From Myxococcus guangdongensis (lineage in GTDB: Bacteria; Myxococcota; Myxococcia; Myxococcales; Myxococcaceae): a DNA stretch of 64,000 nucleotides. The notes beneath the pieces are model-generated. The model saw only the letters and a list, made by a program, of their open reading frames with translations. It did not search any database and was not told the origin of the DNA. Positions within the stretch are counted from its first letter, which is position 1; each line of letters opens with the position of its first letter. The stretch is from the NCBI RefSeq assembly GCF_024198255.1, contig NZ_JAJVKW010000004.1, positions 434,001-498,000 of the forward strand, in the 5' to 3' direction. A program made the position numbers and the translations under genes. Below are positions 23,350 through 32,611 of the stretch, piece after piece.

Positions 23350-25551
23350 ATGGTGTCGTCTCGTTGTTTTGTCGCCGCGCTGCTCGTGTGTCTCGTCGCC
23401 TGCAAGCAGGAGCCTCCCGCTCCCACGCCAGCACCCGTGGCCGCGCCCGTCGTCGCGGAGCCCGAAGACCCGCCGTTCCCCGAGACGCCCCTGCCGCTCG
23501 TCGCCGAAGCCGCACCGCCCGACGCCGAGCCCGTGAAGCCCCCCGAGCCTCCATTCACCGGTGACCTCCCGGCCCTCCGCAAGCGCGGCGTGCTGCGCAT
23601 CCTCGTCGAGACCACCGACGAGAGCTCCCTGCCTCGCCAAGGCACGCCCCGCTCGCAGGACCGCGAGTTGCTGGAGCGCTTCGCCGAGAAGCACGGCCTG
23701 TCCGTCGAGCTCATCGCCGTGGAGCGCTTCGACCTGCTCATCCCCCTGCTGAAAGAGGGACGCGGAGACATCATCGCCGCCGACCTCACCGTCACCCCGG
23801 AGCGCTCCCGCGAGCTGTCCTTCACCCGCCCCATCGCCCTGGTGAACGAGGTGCTCGTCGGCAAGAAGGGCTCCACGGACCTGCCTCGCAAGCCCGAGGA
23901 CCTCGCGGGCCGCGCCGTCCACGTGCGCGCCAGCTCCACCTTCGCCACGTCCCTCGCCGCGCTCGCGCAAGCCAAGGCTCCCGGACTCACCGTCCAGCCC
24001 GAGCCCGAGAGCCTCGACTCGGAGGAGCTCGTGTGGAAGGTCTCTCGCGGAGAGCTGCCCCTCACCGTGGTCGACAGCCACCTGCTGGCCGCCATCCAGA
24101 CGTACAACCCCGACGTCGAGGCGCTCTTCCCCGTCGCGGAGAAGCGCGCGCTTGCCTGGGCCGTGCGCCTGGAGAACCCCATGCTGCGCACCGCGCTGGA
24201 CGCCTTCCTCGTCGAGCGCGCCCTCACCGACCATCGCGACCAACGCTTCACCGGAGACCTCGACGGCATCCGCAAGCGCGGCGTGCTCCGCGTCCTCACG
24301 CGCAACAGCCCCGTCACGTACTTCCTCCACCGTGGCGAACAGGCGGGCTTCGACTACCGGATGGCGAAGCTCGCGGCCGACGCGCTCAAGGTGCGCCTGG
24401 AGGTCGTCGTCCCGGACACGTACGAGGAACTCCTCACGTGGCTGAAGGAGGGGCGGGGAGATGTCGTCGCCGCCTCGCTCACCGTCACGCCCGAGCGTCA
24501 GCGCGAGGTCGCCTTCAGTCGCCCGTACCTCTTCGTGGAGGAAGTCCTCGTCCAGCGGGTCGGCGCGCCGCGCCCCACGTCACTCGCGGACCTGAAGGGC
24601 CAGTCCATCCACGTGCGTCGCACCTCCAGTCACTTCGCCCACCTGAGCACCCTCTCGGCTGAACACGGATTCACCGTCGTCGAGGAACCCGAGGACCAGG
24701 ACACCGAGACGCTCATCGACCGCGTGGCGCGCGGCGAGATTCCCTTCACCGTCACCGACAGCCACATCCTCGCCGCCGAGCGCGTCTATCGCGATGACGT
24801 GGAGGCCGCGCTGACGGTGCCCGGGCAGGGGACGCCCGCGGGCAAGGACGGACACCACGGCATCGCCTTCGCCGTGCGCCCGGGGAGCGTGAAGCTGCGC
24901 GCCTTCCTCGACGGCTTCGTGCAGAAGACCTACCGCGGCACCGAATACAACCTGGCCCGCCGCCGCTACTTCGAGGGACGACGCAGCGAGGCCCCGACCA
25001 CCACCGAGGCCGCCTCGGCCGCGGGCACCATCTCCCCCTACGACCTGCTGGTGCGCTCGTACTCCTCGCGCTACGGCATGGACTGGCGATTGATGGTGGC
25101 GCAGATGTTCCAGGAGAGCCGCTTCGACCCCACGGCGCGAAGCTGGGTGGGCGCGCAGGGCCTCTTCCAGGTCATGCCCGCCACGGGCCGCGAGCTGGGC
25201 TTCCGCAAGCTCGAGGACCCCGACCAGGGCATCCACGCCGGCGTGAAGTACATGCACCAGCTCCTCGGCCGCATCGCTCCGGAGATTCCCTTCAAGCAGC
25301 GCCTGCGCTTCGCCCTGGCCTCCTACAACGCGGGCCTGGGCCACGTGCTGGACGCGCGGCGGCTCGCGCAGGAGCAGGGCCTGGACCCCAACCGCTGGTT
25401 CGGGAACGTGGAGAAGGCCATGCTCCTCCTGGAGAAGCCCAAGCACTACCGCCGCGCGCGACATGGCTACTGCCGAGGCTCGGAGCCCGTGAAGTACGTC
25501 TCCGAAATCCAGACGCGCTACGGCGCCTACGTGTCCGTCGTCCAGCACTGA
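23350..25551 (+). CDS. MltF-like membrane-bound lytic transglycosylase with two solute-binding domains
   Basis: A 733-residue lipoprotein: signal peptide with lipobox LVAC, Cys18 being the lipidation site. A Pro/Ala spacer runs to about residue 68. Two periplasmic solute-binding (SBP family 3) domains follow in tandem, starting FTGDLPALRKRGVLRIL at residue 69 and FTGDLDGIRKRGVLRVL at residue 300; both contain KEGRGD and LTVTPER segments. The C-terminal lysozyme-like SLT domain begins near 560, with catalytic Glu589 in QESRFDP, then GAQGLFQVMPATG and ASYNAGLGHV. MltF cleaves peptidoglycan glycan strands to 1,6-anhydro ends, with its SBP domain acting as an allosteric sensor of peptide ligands. 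Known MltF has a single SBP domain and is about 500 residues, so the duplication is unusual. Confidence 0.88.
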   Translation: MVSSRCFVAALLVCLVACKQEPPAPTPAPVAAPVVAEPEDPPFPETPLPLVAEAAPPDAEPVKPPEPPFTGDLPALRKRGVLRILVETTDESSLPRQGTPRSQDRELLERFAEKHGLSVELIAVERFDLLIPLLKEGRGDIIAADLTVTPERSRELSFTRPIALVNEVLVGKKGSTDLPRKPEDLAGRAVHVRASSTFATSLAALAQAKAPGLTVQPEPESLDSEELVWKVSRGELPLTVVDSHLLAAIQTYNPDVEALFPVAEKRALAWAVRLENPMLRTALDAFLVERALTDHRDQRFTGDLDGIRKRGVLRVLTRNSPVTYFLHRGEQAGFDYRMAKLAADALKVRLEVVVPDTYEELLTWLKEGRGDVVAASLTVTPERQREVAFSRPYLFVEEVLVQRVGAPRPTSLADLKGQSIHVRRTSSHFAHLSTLSAEHGFTVVEEPEDQDTETLIDRVARGEIPFTVTDSHILAAERVYRDDVEAALTVPGQGTPAGKDGHHGIAFAVRPGSVKLRAFLDGFVQKTYRGTEYNLARRRYFEGRRSEAPTTTEAASAAGTISPYDLLVRSYSSRYGMDWRLMVAQMFQESRFDPTARSWVGAQGLFQVMPATGRELGFRKLEDPDQGIHAGVKYMHQLLGRIAPEIPFKQRLRFALASYNAGLGHVLDARRLAQEQGLDPNRWFGNVEKAMLLLEKPKHYRRARHGYCRGSEPVKYVSEIQTRYGAYVSVVQH

Positions 25552-25569: not shown

Positions 25570-26286
25570 TCAGAGCCCCACGCCCACGTAGGCCGCGGCC
25601 CAGGGGCCACTGAGCGAGACCGAGAAGCTGTCGGGGCCCTTCGTGGGGCTCACCTGGAAGTTCTTCGCCTGCGACACGAACTGCGTGTAGCCGACCTGCA
25701 TCCGCGTGTGGAACCAGCGGTTGAGCTGGTACTGCAGCGCCGCGCCCGCGCCTCCGCCGAAGAGCCACTTGCGCGAGCGCGCCTGGAAGTACCGGCCGTC
25801 GATGACCGGGTCTCCGCCTCCCGTCCCGGGGATGTTCGCGGAGATGCGTCCGGTGGCGAGCGACACCTCCGACGCGGCACCGAAGAGGCTCACGCCCAGG
25901 CTCAGCGAATCCGTGAGCGCCAGGCGCTTCTCCAGGCCCGGCCGCAGCGCCAGGACCTGGACGTCGTCACCCAGGAGGTACCAGTCCACGCCATTGGTCC
26001 ACCACCAGTCCATCCGGCCGGAGCTGCGCACCATGTTGAAGTGGATACCGCCCGCCAGGCGCACCGCGTTGGCCCGGGGGCCTACCGTGCGCACCTCGTT
26101 CCTCAGCCCGGGGATGTCCGTCGTCGGATGTTGCATCCGCCCCCAGCCGCCGCCCACATCGACGGCGACCTGGGGGATGCGCCGCTCCTGCTCGGCCTCC
26201 GGTGGAGGAGGCGGCGTGTCGGCGAAGGCCGGGGACACCGGCCCCCACGCCATGAACAACCCGAGTGCGGACAGGGACGTGCGCAT
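25570..26286 (-). CDS. predicted outer-membrane beta-barrel protein
   Basis: A 238-residue protein with a signal peptide (MRTSLSALGLFMAWGPVSPAFA, cleavage about residue 22), a short Pro-rich segment, then alternating amphipathic strands with frequent Gly and aromatic residues (VAVDVGGGWGRM, LALRPGLEKRLAL, SLGVSLFGAASEVSL, WLFGGGAGAALQYQL, GPWAAAYVGVGL). About eight strands fit an OmpA-like or OmpW-like small barrel. It ends with a hydrophobic strand rather than a terminal Phe. It starts 9 bases after the stop of a DUF4139 gene on the same strand and is the last gene of the apparent six-gene operon running from 32524 leftwards. Specific function unknown. Confidence 0.65.
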   Translation of the reverse strand: MRTSLSALGLFMAWGPVSPAFADTPPPPPEAEQERRIPQVAVDVGGGWGRMQHPTTDIPGLRNEVRTVGPRANAVRLAGGIHFNMVRSSGRMDWWWTNGVDWYLLGDDVQVLALRPGLEKRLALTDSLSLGVSLFGAASEVSLATGRISANIPGTGGGDPVIDGRYFQARSRKWLFGGGAGAALQYQLNRWFHTRMQVGYTQFVSQAKNFQVSPTKGPDSFSVSLSGPWAAAYVGVGL

Positions 26287-26295
26287 GCTTGACCT

Positions 26296-27858
26296 CTAGA
26301 GCCCCGCCACCTTCGCGGCGCTGCTCACCGTGTAGACCAGCGTCAACTCCTGCTGCGAGCGCGGTGGCGCCGTCAGCTCGAAGCGGGCGATGCCCTCCGC
26401 GCTCACCTTCGTGGGCGCGGGGCGGGTGGTGTCCTTCTGGAGCGTCACCTCCACCGACTCCACCTCCGAGACGGGGATGCGCTCCTCCAGCGCCACCGCC
26501 GCGGGCTGCGCGCTCATGTTGGAGAGGAACATCTTCACGTGGTGCGTCTTCTGCTTGCGCCCGGTGAGCCGGCTCGTCTCCTCCTGGACGTCCGTCAGTC
26601 GAGCGACGCGCAGCGAGTCCTCGCTGCCGAAGCCCAGGCGCACGCGCTCGCCCTTGCCCGTGAATCGCAGCTGCGAGCGCCCCACGTAGCCACTGGTCCG
26701 CACCAGGTCCACCGGCCCCGCCAGCAACACGGAAGGGCCCACGTTGTCGAACCTCGCCACGCGGTGCACCAGCGGCGACAGCTCCGGACACACCACCAGC
26801 TCGGACGCGGCGGGCGCGGTGAAGTGGAACAGCGGGATGCGGTGTGGCTCTCCATCCGCGGGGACGTTGGCGCGGTGGGGCGCGACGAGGGAGAGCGCCT
26901 CGCCGCCGTCATCCATGCCCGGAAGGCCCTCGTCACGTCGGGCACCGGCGCCCTCGCCCGTGTTCTGGATGACCTCCTCGCGCACCGCGACGTCCACCAC
27001 CTGCTTCTCGCGCTCCGTCTTGTCGCGCAGGAAGAGCCAGTCCGTCTCCAGCCGGGGGGGCGCCGCGCCCAGCGTGGGACGCGCCGTGGACAGCGCCAGC
27101 TCCACGTCCTTCCACTCCTCCTCGGTGCGCTGCCACACCACGGCCTCACACTCCAGGCGCACCGTCGGGCCCTGGGCGCCCGGAGCCTGCTCCAGCGTCG
27201 CGCGGTACGCCGGGCGCCACGCCGCGCAGGGCACCAGGTAGGTGATGGACAACAGCGCCGTGCCGCCGGCGGGATGGCCCACCTCGAGCTCGGCTTGCAC
27301 GTCCAGCTTCGCCTCGGGCTTCTGCGTGTTCGACAGGGCGCCGCGGGCCTGCGCGAGCTGCTGCTGCAGGCGCTGCTCCTCCACGGCCGCCAGACGTCGG
27401 GCCGAGTCCACGGCCTCCAGCGCCTGGCGCACGCTGTCGAGCTGTTGCTTCCACGTGTCGGGTTGCGCGACGCCGCCGCCGGACTGCTCGGAGATGGCGC
27501 GGTACACGTCGGCGTGGGCCGCGGTGAGCAGGGCGTGGCGCGTGTTCAGTCGCTCCCGGTCCGCGCGGGCCTGACGCTCCAGGCGCTCCAGGTCGGCGAC
27601 ACGTCGGCTCAGCTCCGTGGTGTGCTCGCGCAGCGCCTCGGGAGGCTGGGCGCGCGTCACGCGGCGCACGCGGGCCTGGGACACGGTGCCCCCGGCGAGC
27701 TTCGCCTGGAGCGAGCGGTCCACCGCCAGCGGCGACAGGCCGGCGATGACCAGCCGCTGCGCTCCGGGGACCAGGGGGACTTCTCCGCGCCGCTCGACGA
27801 GCGCGCGATCTTCCAGGACGGTGACCTTGACCACCGGCAGGGTGAGGGGCGTGCTCAT
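26296..27858 (-). CDS. DUF4139 (mucoidy-inhibitor MuiA-like) protein, second paralogue
   Basis: A 520-residue protein starting at the ATG 27858; an upstream in-frame ATG at 27915 would overlap the previous gene by 58 bases and is less likely. The N-terminal DUF4140 domain contains VTVLEDRALVERRGEVPLVPG. A coiled coil (TELSRRVADLERLERQARADRERL) follows. The DUF4139 domain starts with LSITYLVPCAAWRPAYRATL and ends in SQQELTLVYTVSSAAKV. No signal peptide is seen. Its start overlaps the stop of the upstream DUF4139 gene by one base (TGATG), showing translational coupling. The family's biochemical role is unknown; some members affect mucoidy or envelope traits. It has no long Pro-rich insert, unlike its partner. 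Confidence 0.85.
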   Translation of the reverse strand: MSTPLTLPVVKVTVLEDRALVERRGEVPLVPGAQRLVIAGLSPLAVDRSLQAKLAGGTVSQARVRRVTRAQPPEALREHTTELSRRVADLERLERQARADRERLNTRHALLTAAHADVYRAISEQSGGGVAQPDTWKQQLDSVRQALEAVDSARRLAAVEEQRLQQQLAQARGALSNTQKPEAKLDVQAELEVGHPAGGTALLSITYLVPCAAWRPAYRATLEQAPGAQGPTVRLECEAVVWQRTEEEWKDVELALSTARPTLGAAPPRLETDWLFLRDKTEREKQVVDVAVREEVIQNTGEGAGARRDEGLPGMDDGGEALSLVAPHRANVPADGEPHRIPLFHFTAPAASELVVCPELSPLVHRVARFDNVGPSVLLAGPVDLVRTSGYVGRSQLRFTGKGERVRLGFGSEDSLRVARLTDVQEETSRLTGRKQKTHHVKMFLSNMSAQPAAVALEERIPVSEVESVEVTLQKDTTRPAPTKVSAEGIARFELTAPPRSQQELTLVYTVSSAAKVAGL

Positions 27859-30092
27859 CAGGTCCTCCGGTTTCCGCCGCCGAGCATCTTGCTGGCGGGA
27901 ATCTTCACGGTCCACGTCGCCTTCAGGGTCTGCGCCTCACCGGGCTGGAGCACCACGCGCCAGGCGCGCTCGCCTTCCACGGGTGTCTCGCCCGGCAGCG
28001 GCGTGCGCTTCTGCCAGGGTGGGGCGGTCTCCGTCTCCTCCACCTTGATGTCCTTCTCGTAGCCGGTGGGCACGGCGGGCACGCGCTCGCAGACCTCCAC
28101 GAGGATGCGGTTGGAGAGCCGGTTGGCCAGCTCCACCGACACGTGGTGCGTGAGCATCGTCGCGCCGCCGAAGATGCCGCCGGTGGCCTCGTCGAAGCGC
28201 GTGTTGCGCGCGACCTTGATGGACTCCTCCACGCCCAGGCCCAGGCGCTGGGTGGAGCCCGGGGGCATGGTGGGCAGGGGAGAGGTCATCAGGAACTCGT
28301 CGCCGAGCGTGACGTCCACGGGGCCGGCGAGCAGCGGGTAGGGCGTCCGGTTCTCCACGCGCACCGTGCGGAAGGCCCTGGGCTCCACGGAGGGGACGAT
28401 GACGTACTCGGCGGACAGGCCCACGGGCACCGACAACACCGGCAACGTGTGCCAGGCCGAGTCCGAGGGGACGTCGACCCGTGACTCCAGGTCGAACTTC
28501 GCGTCGAAGTGCATCGCCGACTCGCGCGGCGACACGGACCAGGTCGGCAGGGGCAGTTGTCGGAGGCTCGCCACCTGCTGCTCGCTCACCGCGATGAACG
28601 AGAGGACGTTCACTTGAATCTGCACGGCCTGCAGGGCGATGAGCTCCCGCGTGACGTGGGTGGGGCGTGAGCGCAGGCGGCCTCGGCCCTCCAGGTCATC
28701 GGCGGCGCTCAACGTGAGCCGGTCGTAGTCCAGCAGGCTGTCGGACGGCTCCACGCGCGGGGCGGCGGCGGAGAGGCGATCCACGCTGGCGCCTCCGCCC
28801 CCCATGGCCCCGTCGAGGTCGGACATGTCCATCGACGCCATCGGCATGTCGTCGGCGTCGCCCGGCGCTTCGGCGAGGGCCTCTTCCTCCATCGGCACCT
28901 GGTTCCTGGAGAAGGAGCCCCGTGAGCGCGACAGCTCCCGCTGGGGCGCGGCGGAGGGGCGGGGGGGCGCGGCCTGCGAGGGGGCCGCGAGACGCTTGGC
29001 CTTCGGCGCCATGGAGGGCGCGGAGCGCACGGCAGTACCGGGCGCGCTGCGGAGCTTCTCCATTCCCGACCCGGTGCTCTCGTCGTCCGCGAGGTACGGC
29101 GCGGGCGCGGGCGGTGGAGGGGGCGGCTCCATCGGTGGAGGCCTCGGCTTGGCGAGCACCGGGGCGCGCCGGGCGTCGTACCCCGCGAACAGCTCATCGA
29201 GCCCCGGTGGAGGCTCACGCCAGCCCGAGCGCGGCGGTGGCGGCTGGCGACGGCCGATGCGCAGCGCCTTGAGCTCGGGGACCTCGGCCCTGCGGTCCAG
29301 GGCGGCGGTGGACACGGACAGCTTCACGCCGGTCCAGTCCTCGCCGGTGTTCTGGCTGACGGTGGCCCGCATGCGCAGCGAGCCTTCCTCCAGCGTGCGA
29401 GGCAGCCGCAAGTCGTAGGTGGGCACCCAGAGCGCGCCGGGCACCGCGTACTCCAGCGCGATGTGCGCGGGTGTCTCGCGAGGCCAGGGGTTGCCGGACA
29501 GCGTGAGCACCGCGGCGCGGTACACGCGGGCGCGCTCGCCCCGGACGGATGACGAGGCCTCGTGCAGGCGCTGGCGTCGCAGGCGGACGTCGTTCTCCGC
29601 GTCGCGCAGCTCCCGCTCCAGGTCGAGCTGCCGCGCGTTCAGCGTGGCCAGCTCCGTGTCCACGAAGGACGTGAGCGCCAGGAGCGAGTCGAGGGGCGCC
29701 TGGTGGGGCGTGTAGCGGGCCTTCTTCTGCGGCGGGAAGGTGGGCTTGAGCTTGCCCACGGCCTGCAGCTCGCGCCGGGTGACCTCCAGTCGCGCCGTCA
29801 CGTCGGAGACGCGCGCGAGGGCCTCCTCCAGGGCGCGGTGCTCCAGGGGGACGTCGACCTCGGGAGGGAGCTGGACGTCGAAGGTGGGTCGGATGGCGCG
29901 GATGGTGAGGCCGGGCGGTCCCTGTCGCACCGCGGCCCGGAGCGTCCCGGTTCGCAGCGAGAGTGGAAGTCCGTTGAGCTGGATTTCGTTGGGGACGCGG
30001 TCCTCCACGAGTTGGAGGGTGGCGATGCGCGTGCAGAGCGCCCCCTCCGCGTGAACGGTGACCGCATCCAGGATGGATGGCACGACGAGCAT
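27858..30092 (-). CDS. DUF4139 protein with long low-complexity insert, first paralogue
   Basis: A 744-residue protein with the same plan as its downstream neighbour: an N-terminal DUF4140 strand-rich domain (MLVVPSILDAVTVHAEGALC), a coiled coil (DTELATLNARQLDLERELRDAE), then DUF4139 beginning IALEYAVPGALWVPTYDLRL. An insert of about 200 residues from about 285 to 480 is Pro/Ala/Arg/Met-rich and probably disordered (EPPPPPPAPAPYLADDE; DMPMASMDMSDLDGAMGGGG). The domain resumes with ELIALQAVQIQVNVLSF and ends TWTVKIPASKM. No export signal is visible. It lies 54 bases downstream of the small gene at 30147 and shares one base with the next gene. Paired DUF4139 proteins may form a heteromer. Confidence 0.85.
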   Translation of the reverse strand: MLVVPSILDAVTVHAEGALCTRIATLQLVEDRVPNEIQLNGLPLSLRTGTLRAAVRQGPPGLTIRAIRPTFDVQLPPEVDVPLEHRALEEALARVSDVTARLEVTRRELQAVGKLKPTFPPQKKARYTPHQAPLDSLLALTSFVDTELATLNARQLDLERELRDAENDVRLRRQRLHEASSSVRGERARVYRAAVLTLSGNPWPRETPAHIALEYAVPGALWVPTYDLRLPRTLEEGSLRMRATVSQNTGEDWTGVKLSVSTAALDRRAEVPELKALRIGRRQPPPPRSGWREPPPGLDELFAGYDARRAPVLAKPRPPPMEPPPPPPAPAPYLADDESTGSGMEKLRSAPGTAVRSAPSMAPKAKRLAAPSQAAPPRPSAAPQRELSRSRGSFSRNQVPMEEEALAEAPGDADDMPMASMDMSDLDGAMGGGGASVDRLSAAAPRVEPSDSLLDYDRLTLSAADDLEGRGRLRSRPTHVTRELIALQAVQIQVNVLSFIAVSEQQVASLRQLPLPTWSVSPRESAMHFDAKFDLESRVDVPSDSAWHTLPVLSVPVGLSAEYVIVPSVEPRAFRTVRVENRTPYPLLAGPVDVTLGDEFLMTSPLPTMPPGSTQRLGLGVEESIKVARNTRFDEATGGIFGGATMLTHHVSVELANRLSNRILVEVCERVPAVPTGYEKDIKVEETETAPPWQKRTPLPGETPVEGERAWRVVLQPGEAQTLKATWTVKIPASKMLGGGNRRT

Positions 30093-30146
30093 GCGCCCCC
30101 TCGGCTCAGGTGTGGGGCGCCACGGTAGTCGAGATGGGCTCCGGAA

Positions 30147-30677
30147 TCATGTCCCCCTGGGGACGTCGACGCCAGGGGCGGCCGAGGGGCCCGAGGGACG
30201 GGGTTCGGGGGCCCATCGGAGCACGCGTCCGCCGGGCAGCCGCAGGGCCCACAAGAGCCGCCGCGTCGTGTCGTGACGCCGGGCGATGAGCACCAGGCCC
30301 CGGCGTCGCACCAGCGCGCCCGAGGCGGTCATGCGCCAGCTCGCGTCGAAGTCGAGCAGGTCCCTGGACAGCATGCCCGGCAGTCGGCCCTCGTCGCTCA
30401 GGGCCTGGGCGAAGCGTCGTCCCTCCACGCGCGAGTCGGGCTCCACGGACATGGGGTTTGCCCGGGCCCATTGCTCGAAGCGCGGGGCGAAGTCGGGACC
30501 GAGCGCCGAGGCCAGCAGGGGCCACGCACGCTCGACGCCTCGGCGGCGCTTGCTCATCAGGGCCTTGGCGGCCGCGAGCACGCGGGCCTCGTCGAACCCT
30601 CGTGGAACCGGGGCACCGACACCGAGCGCGCGCACGAGCTCCGCCTGGGCCCGGGCCTGTCGCTCACGCGCGCTCAT
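30147..30677 (-). CDS. small uncharacterised protein in the DUF692 operon
   Basis: A 176-residue soluble protein, Arg- and Ala-rich. The first 100 residues are helical (QARAQAELVRALGVG, EARVLAAAKALMSKRRRGVERAWPLL, FAPRFEQWARANP), and the last 60 look like short strands (GALVRRRGLVLIARRHDT, WALRLPGGRVLRWAPE). DUF692 enzymes usually need a small helical partner encoded next to them (MbnC in methanobactin synthesis, DUF2063 proteins in other clusters). Its position 36 bases after the DUF692 stop and its helical N-terminus make it a candidate diverged partner, but I cannot establish homology by eye. No catalytic motif seen. Confidence 0.55.
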   Translation of the reverse strand: MSARERQARAQAELVRALGVGAPVPRGFDEARVLAAAKALMSKRRRGVERAWPLLASALGPDFAPRFEQWARANPMSVEPDSRVEGRRFAQALSDEGRLPGMLSRDLLDFDASWRMTASGALVRRRGLVLIARRHDTTRRLLWALRLPGGRVLRWAPEPRPSGPSAAPGVDVPRGT

Positions 30678-30713
30678 GCGAACGCCTCCGGAGGCGCGTC
30701 ATTGGCGCCGCGC

Positions 30714-31634
30714 TCATGAGCGGGACTCCCGCGTGTCGCGGAGGAGGTCGCGCTCGTGGGGCGCGAGGGAGACCTCCGGCTCGAGCGTCTTCGGGGGAGC
30801 CTCGCGGCCATGTCGCTCCGTGCCGCGCAGGAGCGCCTGCTCCATCGCGGACAGCTCCGCGGTGAGCTCCGCCTCGGGAGGGAAGCGGTCGTCGCGCTCG
30901 AGCATCACGGGGACGGGCCCCAGTCGCGCGGCCAGTCGCTCCAGCAACGCGAGCGGCCCCGAGGGGAGCGGATGCGCATGCGTGTCGTGATACAGCCCGC
31001 CGCGCTGGACGCCGCCGGCGACGTGCACATAGGCCAGCCGCTCGCGAGGCACGGCCGCCAGCACCGCGTCCGCATCCGTGCCGTGATTCAGCACCTGGGC
31101 GTGGAGGTTGGCCACGTCCAACAGCAGCGAAGCGCCGGTCCGCTCCAGCACGCCGCGCAGCAGGTCCGCTTCCGTGAAGGCCGCGTCGGGCCACTCGAAC
31201 AGCGAGGCCACGTTCTCCAGCGCGAGCGGCACCGGCAGCACGGCCTCGGCCATCCGGATGTTCTCGGTCAGCACCTCCAGCGCCTCCTCGGAGCGCTGCA
31301 CGGGCAGCAGGTGCCCCGACTCGAGCCCTCCCGCGCGGACGAACGCGAGGTGCTCGCTGACGCACACCGCGCCCAGCCGCTCCGCCAGTCCCGCCAGCCA
31401 CTCCAATCGCCTCGGGTCGGGTGGCTCCGCGGAGCCCAGGCCCAGTGAGACGGCGTGCAGCACCACGGGGACACCGCGCTCACGCAACCGCGAGAGTGGC
31501 TCGGGGATGGGGCCCTTCGGCGAGAGGTGCTCGGCGAGCACCTCCACGAAGCCGAGCTCGGGCCGTCGGTCGATGAAGAGCGCGAGCTCGCGTCGCCACC
31601 CGATGCCGACTCCCCGAAGGCCGAGCCTCGTCAA
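30714..31634 (-). CDS. DUF692 family (MbnB-like) multinuclear iron enzyme
   Basis: A 306-residue TIM-barrel protein of the DUF692 family. I take the TTG at 31634 as start: it overlaps the upstream stop (TTGA) and gives MTRLGLRGVGIGWRRELA, the usual family N-terminus; an ATG at 31661 adds nine Arg/Trp-rich residues. Likely metal ligands are visible: H60 (VLHAVSLGLG), H95 (SEHLAF), E140 (LALENVAS), D173 with N176/H178 (LLLDVANLHA), H204 (YVHVAGG), D217/H219/H221 (HDTHAHPLP) and E246 (MLERDDRFP). Characterised relatives (MbnB, TglH, ChrH) use two or three irons and O2 to remodel cysteine residues of peptides. The substrate here is unknown; the adjacent Cys/Gly-tailed membrane protein is a candidate. 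Confidence 0.88.
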   Translation of the reverse strand: MTRLGLRGVGIGWRRELALFIDRRPELGFVEVLAEHLSPKGPIPEPLSRLRERGVPVVLHAVSLGLGSAEPPDPRRLEWLAGLAERLGAVCVSEHLAFVRAGGLESGHLLPVQRSEEALEVLTENIRMAEAVLPVPLALENVASLFEWPDAAFTEADLLRGVLERTGASLLLDVANLHAQVLNHGTDADAVLAAVPRERLAYVHVAGGVQRGGLYHDTHAHPLPSGPLALLERLAARLGPVPVMLERDDRFPPEAELTAELSAMEQALLRGTERHGREAPPKTLEPEVSLAPHERDLLRDTRESRS

Positions 31635-32524
31635 TCGCCACCTCCACCGCAGCCGCCGCACCCACCACCGCCGCCGTCACCTCCGCTGCTGCAACTGCTG
31701 GAGCTGCTACAGCTGCTGGTGCTGCTCGAGCCGCCGAAGGAAGAACCCGAGGGGTCGATGTGCCGGCGCATCAGCTCGAAGTCGCTCATCGCCACCGCGC
31801 CCAGTCCGAAGAGGGCCACCGCCACTCCCAGGTCCTGGCTGTTCATCGCCTGGGACGTGTCCGCGCTCATGGTGGACATCTTCAGCGGCTGCTGATTCCA
31901 GCGCAGCGCCTGGAGCACCGCCGAGCCCCGACGGCTGGTCCACACGCGCCCCGTGAGCAAGAAGAGGCTGCCCGCCGTCATGAGGCAGAGGAAGACCAGG
32001 ATGGACACGGGCTTCTCGCGCTCCAGGCCCACGTTGATCTTCGCGAGCCCCAGCAGGAGGACGCCGAGCATGGGCAGCATCGGCAACCACCGGGCCCGCG
32101 TGGCCTGGCCTTCGTCGACCAACCAGCCCCGCTGTTGCAGGGGGACCTTGAGCCGCTCGAGGGCGGGCTCGATGCTGGCGACCAGCTCCGCGCTGCTCTT
32201 CTTCGACTCATGGACCGCGGCGTAGACGAGCCGCTCGAGATGCGACGCGAACTCGTACCGCTTGCCCGTCGTCGTCAGGTGCGCGCCGTCCATCACCAGG
32301 GCCTTCTCGTGGAGCAGCTTCGCCAGGGCCGTGTGCACCACGGCCTTGGGGCCGGAGAGCATCGCGAGCTCGAACGGATCCAACTTCTGCGGCAGCGCAT
32401 CCGGGCCGCCCCCGGGCGTGCGCAGCATCCATCGCAGGAAGAAACCGAGCGCCAGGGCGCTCATGCTCAACAGGACGTACAGCGCGAGGAAGTCCGGGCC
32501 CGGCAGGTTCAAGAAGTCCGTCAT
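31631..32524 (-). CDS. TIGR04222-domain membrane protein with Ser/Gly/Cys-rich tail
   Basis: A 297-residue protein. Membrane segments lie at about 11-31, 147-165 and 172-191. The TIGR04222 hallmark LDPFELAMLSG is at 48-58, followed by a cytoplasmic-looking helical region (60-140). The C-terminus from 259 is low complexity: Ser/Gly with four cysteines at 272, 278, 289 and 292, the last two in GGCGGCGGGG. Such near-low-complexity tails are characteristic of the family. It is the first gene of the apparent operon, with GGGAGGG upstream of the ATG, and overlaps the DUF692 gene by four bases. It may anchor or itself be the substrate of the DUF692 enzyme; this is inference. Confidence 0.85.
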   Translation of the reverse strand: MTDFLNLPGPDFLALYVLLSMSALALGFFLRWMLRTPGGGPDALPQKLDPFELAMLSGPKAVVHTALAKLLHEKALVMDGAHLTTTGKRYEFASHLERLVYAAVHESKKSSAELVASIEPALERLKVPLQQRGWLVDEGQATRARWLPMLPMLGVLLLGLAKINVGLEREKPVSILVFLCLMTAGSLFLLTGRVWTSRRGSAVLQALRWNQQPLKMSTMSADTSQAMNSQDLGVAVALFGLGAVAMSDFELMRRHIDPSGSSFGGSSSTSSCSSSSSCSSGGDGGGGGCGGCGGGGD

Positions 32525-32590
32525 TGCGCCCTCCCACGGTGGGTTCGCCCCCTTGATGAAACGCCGTCGGGCGTACGTGACAGCCCGGTC

Positions 32591-32611
32591 CCGTGACGTC
32601 TCCGTGACGTC
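32591..32611. promoter_or_regulatory. direct repeat CCGTGACGTC x2, possible operator
   Basis: CCGTGACGTC occurs at 32591-32600 and again at 32602-32611, an 11-base period placing both on the same helix face. Related half-sites (ACGTGACAG near 32575, GTGTCACCGG near 32615) flank them. They lie 67-87 bases upstream of the TIGR04222 start, the head of the minus-strand operon, where a regulator could bind. No matching -35/-10 pair is clear. Confidence 0.35.

Follow-up and report, generated by a model that had tools for sequence, protein, structure and literature searches.

A proposed cysteine-tail modification cassette and a separable DUF4139 module share a locus in Myxococcus

Genes and features of the locus

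The window, that is, the whole 64,000-nucleotide stretch that we analysed, comes from a Myxococcus genome of 11.2 Mb; M. eversor and M. qinghaiensis are among the names attached to related loci. The six minus-strand ORFs that an initial annotation had joined into a single operon are all present where it placed them, and the junctions that it listed between them were borne out (from upstream to downstream, a 4-nt overlap, 36 bp, 54 bp, a 1-nt overlap and 9 bp). The features discussed below are as follows, with the evidence for each in brackets.

32591..32611, minus strand: putative operator, a GTCAC-N6-GTCAC direct repeat (conserved in several genera)
31631..32524, minus strand: TIGR04222 membrane protein, 297 aa, proposed substrate/precursor (NCBIfam, hydropathy, 31-homologue alignment)
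31634..31747, minus strand: C-terminal tail of the TIGR04222 protein, ...SSSTSSCSSSSSCSSGGDGGGGGCGGCGGGGD (alignment of 31 homologues)
31649-31660, minus strand: invariant CGGC of that tail (31/31 homologues)
30714..31634, minus strand: MNIO (DUF692) enzyme (PF05114, PDB relatives, alignment)
30147..30677, minus strand: 176-aa protein, probable PME-type 2-like MNIO partner (AF2 model, PDB fold matches, locus linkage)
30126..30149, minus strand: promoter-like element upstream of DUF4139A, marking the boundary between the modules (conserved in Myxococcus)
27858..30092, minus strand: DUF4139A, 744 aa, MuiA family, module 2 (PF13598/PF13600, TIGR02231)
26296..27858, minus strand: DUF4139B, 520 aa, MuiA family, module 2 (PF13598/PF13600, TIGR02231)
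25570..26286, minus strand: predicted small outer-membrane beta-barrel, 238 aa, with a Sec signal peptide, accessory to module 2 in Myxococcus (AF2, Foldseek)

A VanY-like and an MGMT-like gene lie upstream of the six on the same strand, with gaps of 180 and 99 bp, and the limits of a six-gene operon are therefore arbitrary. On the plus strand, an MltF-like lytic transglycosylase (window 23350-25551) has two SBP_bac_3 (solute-binding) stretches ahead of its SLT domain. Among plasmids, we found no DNA similar to the locus.

The TIGR04222 protein and the MNIO enzyme

The family assignments of the first two proteins in the initial annotation proved correct. The first matches NCBIfam TIGR04222 with an E-value of 6.7e-39 (133.9 bits against a cut-off of 43), and its hydropathy profile has four hydrophobic segments followed by a Ser/Gly/Cys C-terminal tail. 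This low-complexity, cysteine-containing tail, already remarked on as odd, is hypervariable in length and composition among the myxobacterial homologues, and its terminal CGGC is invariant in 31 out of 31. Four hydrophobic segments would place the tail outside, as in published models, which have it in the periplasm (PMC12452194); a cytoplasmic enzyme would then have to act before export. The fourth segment, however, is marginal, with basic residues after it, and the tail may therefore lie on either side of the membrane. The window’s TIGR04222 gene is the single one in its genome. Another genome, G076, carries four in tandem (L082:9151-13044, minus strand), one of which lacks any Cys tail.

The second protein is a DUF692 enzyme (MNIO; MbnB_TglH_ChrH/DUF692, PF05114, E 3e-74, 250 bits against a cut-off of 25), whose gene begins with a TTG codon and overlaps the TIGR04222 stop by 4 nt. 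Its relatives in the PDB are 3bww, TglH and MbnB. Residues H60, H95, E140-N141, D173, H204, D217, H219, E246 and D248 are invariant in 24 homologues, and we take these His, Asp, Glu and Asn residues of the TIM barrel to be candidate iron ligands. Enzymes of the MNIO family equip cysteines with unusual, metal-binding chemistry. The window’s genome (G000) has three further MNIO genes (L001, L002 and L004, at C1:307721-308503, C22:5134-5925 and C16:62400-63107, respectively), and at two loci elsewhere (L229 in G366 and L230 in G248) a fragmented-looking MNIO gene sits beside an intact TIGR04222 gene with a Cys tail; these two are possibly decaying cassettes.

The 176-aa protein resembles known MNIO partners

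The 176-aa protein matched no Pfam or NCBIfam family and has no DUF2063 signature, and searching its profile against PDB sequences gave chance matches only. An AF2 model (pLDDT 83) was more informative: the top six matches in the PDB are without exception MNIO partners, namely TglI (8hi7, 8hci), NGO1945 (3dee) and MbnC (7dz9, 7tcr, 7fc0). VIA-align gave Z-scores of 7.2 for TglI 8hi7 (rank 1), 6.1 for NGO1945 3dee (rank 3) and 5.3-4.4 for MbnC, versus 3.9 and below for all non-partner structures, values of 4-7 being modest in absolute terms. Foldseek ranks MbnC first and second, weakly (E 0.15). Judging from the model, the protein is probably a PME-type 2-like MNIO partner.

Its gene keeps company with the other two well beyond this genome. 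In the 80 loci closest to ours by MNIO alignment, which come from Myxococcota, Planctomycetota, Actinomycetota, Eremiobacterota and Dormibacterota, 78 have a homologue of the 176-aa protein and 72 have TIGR04222, and several of the absences coincide with contig ends; because the loci were chosen by similarity to the window’s MNIO, both frequencies are valid for this MNIO clade only. DUF4139 appears in just six of the 80, all from Myxococcus/Pyxidicoccus. At the 27 loci of the family, which span seven genera, 4-nt overlaps join TIGR04222 to MNIO in 22 and MNIO to the partner in 24; in the window the 176-aa gene follows MNIO by 36 bp. MNIO and partner are fused in one ORF in a Streptomyces (L158:6890-8305, plus strand; partner match 1.7e-15), and a second, partial fusion is found at L129:2014-3825 (plus strand). 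In two Archangium-like genomes the cassette is instead divided over two loci, one with TIGR04222 and MNIO but no partner, the other with a second TIGR04222 and the partner but no MNIO (L072/L086 in G045, L073/L087 in G048), which suggests action in trans.

The cysteine tail as candidate substrate

Two counts bear on what the enzyme acts upon. In 200 genomes of one actinobacterial family, 121 have both TIGR04222 and MNIO, 6 have TIGR04222 only, 2 have MNIO only and 71 have neither, counts that ignore relatedness. We also took 135 non-redundant TIGR04222 proteins whose genes have an MNIO gene within 4 kb and looked for cysteine among their final 60 residues: 129 have it, versus two out of six in MNIO-less genomes (the other four have none). 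The co-occurrence and the Cys-tail association support, and do not prove, the tail as MNIO substrate. The idea that the DUF692 enzyme modifies the TIGR04222 tail thus gains sequence-level support from linkage, from tail conservation and from a third gene that appears to encode an MNIO partner; the literature that we examined contains no demonstrated modification of any TIGR04222 protein.

The tail cysteines might instead act unmodified, through metal or disulfide chemistry, with MNIO acting on some other, undetected peptide. Cys-tailed TIGR04222 proteins without a linked MNIO, as in G038, G291, G298 and G073b (in the first three of which no MNIO was found), would fit such an arrangement, as would the figure of a third of TIGR04222-bearing genomes without MNIO given in PMC12452194. 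However, the cassette offers no other obvious candidate peptide, and the 4-nt overlaps, the genome co-occurrence and the Cys-tail association all favour the tail; we consider the unmodified tail unlikely.

Alternatively, the cassette could make a released RiPP, with the modified tail cut off its membrane anchor and leaving the cell as a small metallophore-like peptide. The known MNIO products, which are mostly peptides, are in keeping with this, as are the tandem TIGR04222 copies with hypervariable tails seen in G076, in G098 and in actinobacteria, but the conserved cassette comprises three genes and no other was seen as part of it (the flanks were not scanned gene by gene for proteases or exporters). 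Release seems to us quite unlikely, and we favour a modified tail that stays tethered to the membrane.

The DUF4139 pair and the barrel

DUF4139A and DUF4139B belong to the families to which they had been assigned: both are DUF4140-DUF4139 proteins of the MuiA family, scoring 193 and 264 bits, respectively, with TIGR02231 (cut-off 112.6). A long Pro/Ala/Ser/Met-rich low-complexity insert splits the DUF4139 domain of DUF4139A. Of the 145 genomes searched in the order, 102 have DUF4139B at E<=1e-30. Sequence searches yielded no solved relative of either protein, and the literature that we searched gave no study of what DUF4139 does; the pair in module 2 is conserved and as yet uncharacterised. 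Scattered “RecG” matches in the locus map, made with filtering off, were rejected as artefacts of the repetitive N-terminus of RecG.

The 238-aa barrel protein has no family match. A leader/signal peptide is present in 17 homologues, and although the five AF2 models are uneven, the best (pLDDT 78) has Foldseek matches to the outer-membrane barrels OmpA/Ail/OmpX/OmpW with E-values down to 1.3e-6. Signal peptide and predicted fold agree with the outer-membrane barrel of the initial annotation, and with its view that this protein points to the envelope. It had said the same of the DUF4139 proteins, for which that view did not hold up: neither has a signal peptide by hydropathy or sequence, so alone they do not point to the envelope.

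Two adjacent modules

The broadest proposal made for this locus treats the six genes as a single modification-and-presentation machine that reaches from the cytoplasm across the inner membrane to the outer membrane. We searched 145 genomes of the order for TIGR04222, MNIO, DUF4139B and the barrel, and mapped all genes on 54 stretches from relatives. Module 1, TIGR04222 > MNIO > 176-aa partner, is found as a block in seven genera of the family and recurs without DUF4139 in at least five phyla. Module 2 is DUF4139A > DUF4139B plus the OmpA-like barrel, and it is the barrel that is largely confined to the genus; whether or not module 1 is there, the DUF4139A > DUF4139B pair itself is present in every one of the 27 genus members and through most of the family.

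The six-gene proposal draws its support from the short gaps in the window, including the 54 bp between the 176-aa gene and DUF4139A, and from the adjacency of the modules in 14 of the 27 genus members (the window’s genome and 13 others; in G098 the adjoining block is split across two contigs), on both sides of the deepest split in the genus. Against this, wherever adjacency could be judged in other genera, the modules do not adjoin; the cassette of G100 lies 3.9 Mb away from module 2, and in G098 and G120 the gap between the halves is about 700 bp. The 12 genus members without TIGR04222 keep module 2, and in all eight of these that were mapped VanY is followed directly by DUF4139A, as an empty site. 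M. xanthus seems to be without module 1. The barrel is absent from 6 of the 14 adjacent genomes (G096, G101, G110-G113). On the DUF4139B tree, several gains or losses of adjacency are needed within the genus, with module 1 patchy and module 2 always kept.

A promoter-like element, TGATT-N8/9-CATCTCGACTA-c/g-cGT, lies between the halves directly upstream of DUF4139A. Its exact form occurs once in the genome. It is recognisable in 23 out of 23 aligned Myxococcus loci, nine of them without the cassette upstream; the exact pattern misses some genomes, but the alignment has variant forms of the element in these. A scan for sigma-70 promoters and terminators gave nothing above chance. From position and conservation we infer that the element would be the promoter for module 2.

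The initial annotation had named two observations that would tell against its own idea, a gene order not conserved beyond close relatives and separate promoters and terminators between the MNIO and DUF4139 halves. The six-gene order does not extend beyond some members of a single genus, and the putative promoter lies at just this boundary. We regard the single six-gene machine as highly improbable: on the comparative sequence evidence, the locus is two independent, adjacent modules, not one conserved system. The short gaps behind the idea of one transcript are real, but the unity of that transcript is not borne out, given the conserved promoter-like element and halves that are separable in relatives. 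Where the modules adjoin in the 13 other Myxococcus genomes, read-through may co-transcribe them in part.

A direct repeat upstream of the cassette

A GTCAC-N6-GTCAC direct repeat with an 11-bp period lies about 84 bp upstream of the TIGR04222 gene. Same-orientation GTCAC/GTGAC pairs at exactly 11 bp are present in 11 of 22 representative upstream regions, compared with a null mean of 0.02, and none are spaced at 6-10 or 12-15 bp in the same 22 regions. The repeat is found in Myxococcus and several other genera, in some with three units or in opposite orientation, and it also precedes the MNIO-less TIGR04222 gene of G073b. An 11-bp spacing of repeated units is typical of the OmpR/PhoB family of response regulators, and a regulator of this type probably acts at the repeat, which we treat as a putative operator. 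Considered as a genome-wide regulon, the repeat was rejected: its 36 sites are near the chance estimate of about 33 (from GTCAC frequency), so no regulon is identified. A reversed control gave 3 sites and is not a fair null, because its word composition differs.

A proposed function

Starting from the computed gene content, order and coupling, module independence, predicted partner fold, tail conservation and conserved DNA elements, we infer a substrate, a chemistry, a metal-binding product, a class of regulator and a working promoter, as follows. Module 1 (30147-32611) would be a translationally coupled cassette whose substrate is the TIGR04222 membrane protein. The DUF692/MNIO iron enzyme and its MbnC/TglI-like 176-aa partner would oxidatively modify cysteines of the Ser/Gly/Cys tail, the invariant terminal CGGC pair most likely among them, and the product would be a membrane-tethered modified-cysteine tail, probably metal-binding. 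A regulator of the OmpR/PhoB type, acting at the 11-bp-period GTCAC repeat, would probably control transcription of the cassette. Module 2 (25570-30149) would be transcribed from its own promoter, and neither module would need the other. We think this account of a tail-modifying cassette beside a separate second module reasonably likely to be right. More tentatively, and with rather less than even confidence, we suggest a class that crosses phyla, in which membrane-anchored TIGR04222 Cys tails are modified in place by MNIO and a near-universal partner to form a tethered metal-/redox-active brush, not a released RiPP; in myxobacteria an OmpR/PhoB-type regulator at the 11-bp-period GTCAC operator would switch the system on.

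Relation to known systems

For the combination at this locus the initial annotation knew of no described function, a statement now outdated: TIGR04222-MNIO-PME type 2 clusters were described bioinformatically in 2025 as putative RiPP-like (Microb Genom 2025, PMC12452194), and that article already proposed a subset of TIGR04222 proteins as MNIO substrates with PME-type 2 partners. Module 1 is of the kind predicted there. The clusters described there share with ours the three kinds of protein, a TIGR04222 gene mostly before MNIO, Cys/Ser/Gly tails and an MNIO related to bufferin enzymes. They differ in that the partner is reported in “at least 10%”, many TIGR04222-MNIO clusters appearing to have none, versus 78/80 in the clade studied here. 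The main text mentions neither DUF4139 nor Myxococcus, and the passages that we read do not include the CGGC terminus, the fusion, the split loci or the direct-repeat element. What we add is thus the near-universal partner in this clade, the fusion, the split loci, the invariant CGGC and the upstream repeat, together with sequence-level evidence for the independence of the DUF4139/barrel half.

The bufferin system (Buf1/Buf2, BufBC) likewise pairs a related MNIO (the best NCBIfam match is BufB) with a partner protein. The window’s MNIO scores 189.7 bits with BufB NF050167, below the equivalog cut-off of 310, so we do not file the cassette as a bufferin system; moreover, the proposed substrate here is a polytopic membrane protein without a Sec signal peptide, and the partner has no DUF2063 match. 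Methanobactin MbnBC and TglHI also combine an enzyme with a structurally similar partner (MbnC, TglI), but theirs act on a free short peptide, whereas the substrate here would be a membrane protein, and our MNIO is distant from MbnB in sequence (35 bits with the MbnB model against a cut-off of 325). For the MuiA/DUF4139 family, both proteins of module 2 exceed the TIGR02231 and Pfam cut-offs, and what differs is their arrangement as a tandem pair.

As the locus illustrates, what looks like one multi-gene system may consist of two modules that are independent of each other. With a partner, a candidate target in the CGGC and a likely regulatory site supplied, the substrate hypothesis can be put to a direct test in bacteria that are amenable to genetics. 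If MNIO enzymes also act on whole membrane proteins, RiPP-like modification would extend to membrane-tethered proteins of many soil bacteria.
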